In this document: piece after piece, positions 26,831-29,252 of the stretch
Layout: every line of letters starts with the position of its first letter
Numbering within the stretch: the stretch's first letter is position 1
Program-made: the position numbers and the translations under genes
Assembly (NCBI RefSeq): GCF_003843835.1
Contig: NZ_RKQL01000002.1
Coordinates: 124,001-188,000, forward strand
Source: Tibeticola sediminis
GTDB taxonomy: Bacteria > Pseudomonadota > Gammaproteobacteria > Burkholderiales > Burkholderiaceae_C
Direction: 5' to 3'
Length of the DNA stretch: 64,000 nucleotides
The notes under the pieces: generated by a model
The model's input: the letters and a program-made list of their open reading frames with translations, nothing else
Databases searched by the model: none
What the model was told of the DNA's origin: nothing

Positions 26831-26837
26831 GTTGGGT

Positions 26838-26931
26838 GACGAGCCTTGACCCCGGCACTGACTCCACAGTTAGGGCTGCTTGGTTCCCCACCTGACCCGG
26901 TTGGCTGCTTTGCCATGCGGGAAGGCCCGTC
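26838..26931 (-). ncRNA. ffs: 4.5S RNA (small signal recognition particle RNA)
   Basis: Scaffold RNA of the bacterial signal recognition particle, binding Ffh for co-translational targeting of membrane proteins. On the minus strand the Ffh-binding hairpin is complete at 26874-26897: GGTCAGG, a 3-base arm, the GGAA tetraloop, the complementary arm and AGCAGCC. The outer stem pairs GACGGGCCTT (5' end, 26931) with AAGGCTCGTC (3' end, 26838). The mature ends may differ by a few bases. The 10-bp terminator follows directly. Its place beside dnaX is common in bacteria. Confidence 0.92.
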
Positions 26932-27407: not shown

Positions 27408-29252
27408 ATGGCTCCCTATTTGGTTCTGGCTCGGAAGTATCGTCCTCGGACCTTTTCCGAGATGGTTGGGCAAGACGCCGTCGTTCGCGCCTTGACCAAC
27501 GCCTTGTCCACGGGGCGTTTGCATCATGTGTACTTGTTCACCGGCACGCGGGGCGTCGGCAAGACGACGGTGTCGCGCATTCTGGCGAAGTCGCTCAATT
27601 GCCAGGGCGTCGATGGACAAGGCGGCGTGACGGCCACGCCTTGTGGGGTTTGCCCGGCCTGCGTGGAGATCGACGCCGGGCGCTTCGTGGACTACACCGA
27701 GCTCGACGCCGCCTCGAACCGTGGCGTTGCCGAAGTTCAAAGCCTGCTCGAGCAGGCGGTCTACAAGCCCGTGCAGGGGCGCTACAAGGTCTTCATGATC
27801 GACGAGGTTCACATGCTGACCGGGCACGCCTTCAATGCGATGCTCAAAACGCTGGAGGAGCCTCCCGAATATTTGAAATTCGTCTTGGCGACGACCGACC
27901 CGCAGAAGGTGCCGGTCACGGTCTTGAGCCGCTGCCTGCAGTTCAACCTGCGTCCCATGGCGCCGGAGACCGTTGCGGAGCATCTGCAGCGCGTGCTTGC
28001 CGCCGAGTCCATCGATTTCGAAGCATCGGCCTTGCGCCTGCTGGCTCGCGCCGCCCGTGGCTCGATGCGCGACGCGCTGAGCCTGACCGACCAAGCGATT
28101 GCCTACGGTGGGGGCGCGCTGCGCGAAGTACCCGTGCGCCAGATGCTGGGCAGTGCGGACCGCAGTCTGATGTGGCAGGTGCTCGAGGCGCTGTCGCACG
28201 GCGCGGGCCGAACGGTGATCGAATCCATCGAGGCCATGCGCGTGCAGGGACTGCAAGCGGGCGCGATGCTCGATGAAATGGTTGCTGTCCTCCAGGACGT
28301 CGCGGTGCGTCAAGCGGTTCCCGAAGCGGCAGCGGCCCGAGACGAGGCAGACGAGGCGCAGCTGCAGCGCTTGTCGCAAGCCTTGGCAGCCGACGAGACC
28401 CAGCTCCTCTACAGCATTTGCCTGCATGGCCGTCAGGAGTTGGGCTTGGCGGTGGACGAATACGCGGCGTTGACGATGGTTCTGCTGCGCTTCTTGGCGT
28501 TCAAGTCGCCGTCGTCGCCCGAAGAAAAAAAAAGCCCGTTGAGGGCCAAGGATGAAATCAGCCCCCGGCTGGGGGCTGGGGCTGGCGCCGCACCGGCGCC
28601 TCCGCTGAGCGGACGAGAGGCTCCGGGGACGTCGCCGGCCGGTTCGTCCGAGCGGGTGGAGAGCCCGGCCGTGACGCTGGACGAGGGTGCTTCCTTGCCT
28701 CTGGTGGATGCACCGCATGCAGCGCGGTCGCTGCAGCCAGTGGCGAACGGTGAGACCACAGAAAAAGCGGGGGTATCGAGCGATCTCAGCGAGCCGGTCG
28801 AGCATTCGAGCGTTCCGCCCGCCGGCGGCGCCGCGACCGCGGAACCGGCCGAGGCTCCTGCAGTTTCGGACGCGGACGATGTGTTTTGGCATGGTTTGGT
28901 CATGCGCCTGATCGGCTCCGAGCGGATCGGAGCGCTCGTGCGTGAGCTGGCGCTCCAGTCCGAGCTCGTGCGGCGCGACGGCAACGTGTGGGTGCTTCGG
29001 GTCGAGGCCGAGGCACTGGCCCAGCCGCAGATGGCGCAGCGGCTCGAGGCGGCGTTGGCCGCAGAAGGCCATGCGGTGCGCCTTTGTGTGGAGTTGGGGC
29101 GGGCCGAGAACAGCCCCGCACAGCGCCTGGCCCGCCGAGCGCAGGCGCGGCTGGCCCGGGCCGAGGCTTGGGTCGCAGCCGATCCCTGGACGCAAGAGAT
29201 GATGCGCAGCTTTGGCGCGAAAATCGTGCCCGGGAGTCTCGCAGCGCTGTGA
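27408..29252 (+). CDS. dnaX: DNA polymerase III subunits gamma and tau
   Basis: Clamp-loader ATPase, 614 residues in the full (tau) form. The N-terminal AAA+ module shows LARKYRPRTFSEMVGQD, Walker A GTRGVGKTT, a zinc site with CGVCPAC, and DEVHMLTGHAFNAMLKTLEEPP. The clamp-loader collar ends near residue 370. A Pro/Ala/Glu-rich linker and the C-terminal domain that binds alpha and DnaB follow. At codons 374-375 a run of nine A, two hairpins and an early -1 stop suggest that a short gamma form is also made. It is followed by ybaB and recR, the classic order. Confidence 0.96.
   Translation: MAPYLVLARKYRPRTFSEMVGQDAVVRALTNALSTGRLHHVYLFTGTRGVGKTTVSRILAKSLNCQGVDGQGGVTATPCGVCPACVEIDAGRFVDYTELDAASNRGVAEVQSLLEQAVYKPVQGRYKVFMIDEVHMLTGHAFNAMLKTLEEPPEYLKFVLATTDPQKVPVTVLSRCLQFNLRPMAPETVAEHLQRVLAAESIDFEASALRLLARAARGSMRDALSLTDQAIAYGGGALREVPVRQMLGSADRSLMWQVLEALSHGAGRTVIESIEAMRVQGLQAGAMLDEMVAVLQDVAVRQAVPEAAAARDEADEAQLQRLSQALAADETQLLYSICLHGRQELGLAVDEYAALTMVLLRFLAFKSPSSPEEKKSPLRAKDEISPRLGAGAGAAPAPPLSGREAPGTSPAGSSERVESPAVTLDEGASLPLVDAPHAARSLQPVANGETTEKAGVSSDLSEPVEHSSVPPAGGAATAEPAEAPAVSDADDVFWHGLVMRLIGSERIGALVRELALQSELVRRDGNVWVLRVEAEALAQPQMAQRLEAALAAEGHAVRLCVELGRAENSPAQRLARRAQARLARAEAWVAADPWTQEMMRSFGAKIVPGSLAAL
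28525..28577 (+). promoter_or_regulatory. Predicted -1 frameshift or slippage signal in dnaX
   Basis: Nine consecutive A (28525-28533) read in frame as GAA AAA AAA AGC, containing the slippery heptamer A AAA AAA. Directly after is a 4-bp hairpin GCCC-gttga-GGGC, and at 28560-28577 a 7-bp stem AGCCCCC-ggct-GGGGGCT. A shift of -1 adds Lys Pro Val Glu Gly Gln Gly and then meets TGA at 28553-28555, giving a product of about 382 residues that ends just after the ATPase and collar domains, as gamma does. Confidence 0.7.

Follow-up and report, generated by a model that had tools for sequence, protein, structure and literature searches.

The dnaX gene of Tibeticola sediminis carries nine consecutive A's (A9) inside its reading frame. 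This raises the question whether the gene, like that of Thermus thermophilus, in which transcriptional slippage was reportedly described by Larsen et al. in 2000, yields a shorter protein, gamma, beside full-length tau, and by which process. We examine this question by comparing dnaX genes, starting from the window, i.e. the whole stretch of 64,000 nt of contig NZ_RKQL01000002.1 (positions 124,001-188,000) that contains the gene. The answer bears on whether gamma exists and matters beyond enterobacteria and Thermus; most other bacteria, in the wording of the available part of a 2012 review, keep no dnaX frameshift signature and may therefore not make gamma (PMC3290774). Among the matches listed in a literature search, which covers few subscription papers, there was no earlier report on the dnaX run of this family. 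We will argue that the run is probably a programmed slippage site of the Thermus type, which would give gamma of 377-382 residues beside tau.

The features of the locus are collected in Table 1. In the zero frame, the run is read as GAA AAA AAA AGC (codons 373-376), and this frame encodes full-length tau, domains I-III and V included. The reverse arrangement, with the zero frame ending at gamma and tau lying in another frame, is not the one found in T. sediminis dnaX. The run sits where gamma should end, because it falls at the end of Pfam domain III and before the start of domain V. In the -1 frame, the sequence after the run reads AAG CCC GTT GAG GGC CAA GGA TGA, which gives 382 residues ending in KKKPVEGQG. 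In the +1 frame it reads GCC CGT TGA, which gives 377 or 378 residues ending in KKAR. A preliminary description of the locus had pointed out the nine A's, the heptamer A AAA AAA, a -1 TGA after seven codons and a product of about 382 residues ending right after the clamp-loader domains, and all of this is borne out. Its weak parts are the hairpins, taken up below, and the picture of a -1 product alone, as the +1 frame is closed as well. Upstream of dnaX, on the opposite strand, lies a gene for the bacterial small SRP RNA (26835-26931 of the window, minus strand).

Table 1. Features of the dnaX locus of T. sediminis, in window coordinates.
Feature	Positions	Strand	Support
dnaX, 614 codons; zero frame gives full-length tau	27408..29252	+	TIGR02397, 401 bits
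Domain III coding stretch, residues 242-374	28131..28529	+	Pfam PF12169, E 1.5e-20
A9 run, proposed RNA-polymerase slippage site, with in-phase heptamer A AAA AAA inside	28525..28533	+	
+1-frame TGA, predicted to close products of 8-A or 11-A mRNA (...KKAR)	28540..28542	+	
-1-frame TGA, predicted to close product of 10-A mRNA or of a -1 ribosomal shift (...KKKPVEGQG)	28553..28555	+	
Two hairpins (28534-28546 and 28558-28579), probably incidental	28534..28579	+	folding vs shuffles
Domain V of tau, residues 501-606, missing from the predicted short product	28908..29225	+	Pfam PF12170, E 5.7e-7

In the mechanism that we propose, the nascent RNA would re-pair out of register with the template during transcription of the nine A's, so that a fraction of the dnaX mRNA would contain 8, 10 or 11 A's. 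Messages with 9 (or 12) A's would be translated into full-length tau, with predicted lengths of 614 or 615 residues. Those with 8, 10 or 11 A's would run into the nearby -1 or +1 stop and give gamma-like proteins of 377, 382 or 378 residues, respectively, which would keep domains I-III and be without the tau-specific C-terminal part.

We consider first how constant the run is. Among named close relatives, A9 is present in 78 genes and A10 in two, i.e. in 80 of 80, and always in the same codon phase. The titles of these loci include Rhodoferax, Ramlibacter, Variovorax, Hydrogenophaga and other Comamonadaceae; they were chosen by protein similarity to the dnaX of the window, so the set leans to the clade described below. 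The total collection had 103 rows, from which we removed L001 (the window again), L059 (the same open reading frame as L072) and L009 (A8, in another phase). All of the remaining 100 distinct genes carrying the run have nine or ten A's in the same phase. The tau frame is intact in every one of them, the two A10 genes included. This speaks against the notion that the run, being a homopolymer inside a coding sequence, is a contingency tract at the DNA level, where replication slippage flips the gene between frames within the population. Loss of tau is moreover expected to be lethal, and we regard such a tract as extremely improbable.

The second property is the closure of both other frames. The median distance from the run to the -1 stop is 5 codons, and 99 of the 100 distinct genes have this stop within 15 codons; the sole exception is L106 from Hydrogenophaga pseudoflava, where the stop comes only after 56 codons. 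In the +1 frame, the stop comes after one codon in 87 genes and within 10 codons in all 100. For the -1 stops, synonymous redrawing of the codons gives a mean of 30.0 (maximum 42 in 1000 draws) and codon shuffling 36.8; for the +1 stops within 10 codons, the corresponding values are 73.1 (maximum 87 in 1000 draws) and 20.3. It is important to note that the genes are related and not independent, so these draws are not to be taken as probabilities. A conserved Leu codon accounts for part of the +1 signal, since the synonymous null already gives 65.5 of 100 for a stop at one codon, compared to the 87 seen. At the genus level, all 21 genomes with A9 in the one-per-genus sample introduced below meet the first -1 stop after 3 to 7 codons and are closed in the +1 frame after 1 or 2. 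As controls, we scored how often both stops come early at other anchors: this is the case at none of 360 linker anchors in the 12 genomes of the family that lack the run, at 8.7% of 690 anchors in 23 genomes of other families, and at 9.2% of 6000 anchors placed 30-90 codons further down in the A9 genes themselves. Judged by these comparisons, close stops in both frames far exceed the nulls used.

A sample less biased than the named loci is obtained by taking one genome per genus. It comprises 36 family genomes including that of the window, of which 35 could be read, since G009 is without a full dnaX. A9 is present in 21 of them, the run of G001 contains an unresolved base, A_AAA_AAG takes its place in G029, and 12 have neither. 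G001 is the window's only genus mate in the sample. Its run (L039) reads GANAAAAAG with unresolved bases, a zero-frame stop comes soon after and there are more N's in the linker; it was counted neither for nor against the run. In a tree of 58 DnaX N-termini, where 23 of the 55 inner branches have weak support and the bootstrap had yet to converge, 24 genomes form one clade with support 96/99. The clade represents 23 genera, the window and G001 sharing one. Its members are the 21 A9 genomes, G001, G029 and, without the run, G025; the other 11 genomes lacking the run fall outside. This distribution fits a single gain of the run with few losses. Together with the late -1 stop of L106, the 12 genomes without a run are among the points that count against slippage, and because 12 of 35 genomes, clade member G025 among them, do without such a run, the device would seem to be dispensable or replaced in some genomes of the family.

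The conservation around the run is narrow. Over the 98 A9 genes, i.e. leaving out the two with A10, the conserved block takes in, besides the run, about five bases ahead of it and six behind it (positions -5 to +14). Beyond this block conservation is low, with codon-position bias scattered, and the length of the linker varies such that the run begins 369 to 390 codons into the alignment. The base two before the run is T in 52, G in 43, A in 3 and C in none of the 98 genes; in the window it is A (28523). GCC makes up 40% of the Ala codons in the A9 genes, yet C is absent at this position, and GCT precedes the run in 50 of the 98.

Such a block could be taken to be merely a conserved Glu/Gln-Lys-Lys-Thr/Ser motif of the linker, or a tolerated low-complexity stretch, with no recoding role. 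The linker is indeed free to hold sequence of this kind. To judge this reading, we use a survey of 209 dnaX loci from samples of the family, the order and the class (G086, G087, G122, G127 and G213, where dnaX is partial or at a contig end, are not in it). A complete linker is not readable in 13 of the loci, and the remaining 196 were used for the linker tests. Runs of at least nine A's occur 41 times in the linkers (70.8 kb) of the 209 loci, whereas none falls within domains I-III (221 kb) or the final 300 nt (58.8 kb). In the clade, 21 of 23 readable linkers contain the run, compared to a mean of 1.6 upon synonymous resampling. Outside the clade, resampling of 173 linkers gives a mean of 7.1 linkers with such a run, so that the amino acid sequence by itself is able to produce some. 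The AAA AAA pair is, however, invariant in 98 of 98 A9 genes although AAA accounts for only 47% of their Lys codons, and a linker motif would leave the early stops in both other frames unexplained. Taken together, we find a mere motif very unlikely.

The runs are also few. The 2.73 Mb genome of T. sediminis contains 24 separate runs of at least eight A's on both strands (26 overlapping matches), of which two are A9. The second A9 lies about 15 nt beyond the stop of an open reading frame of 222 residues with CxxCH motifs, which by eye only appears cytochrome-like; an overlapping frame of 188 amino acids does span it. In 21 other genomes of the same family, nine-A matches number 0 to 25 per genome on both strands, overlapping matches in longer runs included, and A9 runs are therefore few there too.

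We now compare slippage with a ribosomal -1 frameshift at A AAA AAA, aided by the hairpins as in E. coli dnaX, which would give the same 382 residues without any slipping of the polymerase. The preliminary description had left the choice between the two open. In favour of the ribosomal shift, the in-phase heptamer is followed by a -1 stop after seven codons, hairpins follow the run in the window, and one genus of the clade, G029 (L031), bears A_AAA_AAG as in E. coli, preceded by AGGAG and with a -1 TGA directly behind it. Ribosomal shifting requires neither the +1 stop nor nine A's, and yet both are kept. In E. coli constructs, moreover, A_AAA_AAA is far less shifty than A_AAA_AAG, according to the accessible sections of PMC5009743.

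Stimulatory elements shared by the group are likewise missing. The two hairpins had been described as lying within 45 bases of the run; both are present, the second ending 46 nt past it. The hairpin region of the window exceeds shuffled sequences only mildly, with a z of -2.10 over 72 nt (matched by 8 of 200 shuffles) and of -1.39 over 101 nt (21 of 200). In the 100 genes, folding over 60 nt is slightly stronger than at control sites (mean -21.3 vs -19.9), but there is no common structural signal, with a mean z of -0.15 and only four genes at z of -2 or below. Hairpins as a conserved stimulator thus find no support over these genes, and those of the window are probably local and incidental; none of the three Rfam hits of the window above the gathering threshold covers them. 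Similarly, the Shine-Dalgarno duplex upstream of the run has a mean of -3.60 vs -3.38 at control sites (with 10 of 100 genes reaching -6 or beyond), which gives no support to such a site as a group feature, and in the window this duplex amounts to only -0.2 kcal/mol.

Slippage is thus favoured over the ribosomal shift, because all 100 genes have nine or ten A's, stops close both other frames, and the group has no stimulator in common. We consider the purely ribosomal process unlikely. It is possible that A_AAA_AAA also supports some -1 ribosomal shifting, and that the two processes are mixed; their predicted C-termini differ. The claim of a recoding site yielding a gamma-like product is, in either case, strongly supported by the conservation and the early stops. 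We infer that RNA polymerase slips at the A9 of T. sediminis dnaX, and further that gamma arises there in quantity and serves some purpose.

Another option considered was that the tRNA-Lys content explains the presence of A9 rather than A_AAA_AAG. For E. coli a single tRNA-Lys is described (PMC5009743, in part), a point of relevance to ribosomal slipping at AAG. T. sediminis has two tRNA-Lys genes, with anticodons CUU and UUU (L172, L173), and G029 has, by exact pattern, four with UUU and none with CUU. By the same pattern, no CUU gene is found in six A9 genomes (G007, G010, G016, G020, G031 and G035). There is thus no clear link, and this option was discarded.

The proposed site can be placed among known systems, which we cite from excerpts of the respective papers. 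Thermus dnaX has nine A's with stops in both other frames and slippage has been reported (PMC1088944, PMC5009743); the type is further characterized by mRNA with a variable number of A's and by gamma about equal to tau in amount. Nine is also the length of run where a large share of genomes show selection against slippage (PMC1088944, PMC5009743). T. sediminis shares the nine A's, the zero-frame tau, the nearby stops in both other frames and, as predicted here, gamma from shifted mRNA. It differs in the position of the run, which in Thermus is seven-eighths through the gene (PMC1088944) and here at codon 373 of 614. Slippage has been shown in Thermus and is proposed for T. sediminis, and the likeness is one of anatomy.

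With the -1 frameshift of E. coli dnaX the site shares the gene, the close -1 stop and a gamma predicted to end after domain III, as far as the consulted portions of PMC5009743 and PMC3711429 describe it. E. coli relies on A_AAA_AAG, a stem-loop and, upstream, a Shine-Dalgarno-like stimulator (same sources), whereas T. sediminis has A_AAA_AAA within A9, no shared stimulator, and a closed +1 frame. In a further type of dnaX tau itself is made by recoding; an excerpt of PMC3711429 lists 17 genes with frame transitions, nine of them with 10 A's. These resemble the present case in the poly-A run and in the transcriptional realignment proposed for them, but there the longer tau needs the shift, while in T. 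sediminis it is in frame. Caulobacter crescentus, finally, likewise obtains two products from one dnaX, gamma arising by proteolysis of tau, which, unlike our proposal, requires no recoding site (PMC5009743, in part).

Outside the clade, runs of at least nine A's were found in 20 of the 173 readable linkers, from 19 families. Upon codon shuffling, the mean over 300 draws is 1.8 (maximum 6); for the synonymous resampling, also of 300 draws, the maximum is 13. In 15 of the 20, stops close both other frames within 10 codons, as they do at 22% of control anchors. The remaining five are L028, L228, L199 and L287, where the +1 stop is late, and L264, with the -1 stop at 11. Some of the run-bearing genes are AT-rich (GC from 0.32), where runs and stops are cheap, and not every run beyond the clade need therefore be functional. 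The device is of a known kind, and the comparison supports it here for a whole clade and shows signs that it arose repeatedly. We would give even chances to the broader proposal that poly-A slippage in the tau linker is the standing gamma route of a large Comamonadaceae-like clade, with many origins in other families of the class, and that it can be traded for a ribosomal A_AAA_AAG as in G029. Closure of both other frames serves as a comparative test of gamma, and its outcome is strongly in favour for a whole clade. If the proposal is true, gamma would be made far more widely than held, which would argue for its real use.

Some individual loci of the survey deserve mention. An in-phase A_AAA_AAG without a run of at least nine A's occurs in five of the 209. 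One is L031 of G029, inside the A9 clade, where it is found in the linker about 38 nt past domain III, with AGGAG 15 nt upstream and the -1 TGA one codon on; the run is replaced here by a ribosomal site resembling that of E. coli. L256 (G161) has A11 at the end of an open frame of 394 codons, with a zero-frame stop at once and another frame open beyond; it looks like the dnaX type where tau needs the shift. In L027 (G054) and L252 (G101), of the same genus g54, the zero frame stops in the linker without an A run, and domain-V-like sequence, recognized by eye, follows further on in another frame, suggesting either a split gene or another kind of recoding. The zero frame of L305 (G133) ends in a G+C-rich linker, with domain-V-like sequence (also by eye) in another frame, which may reflect either a sequencing error or recoding.
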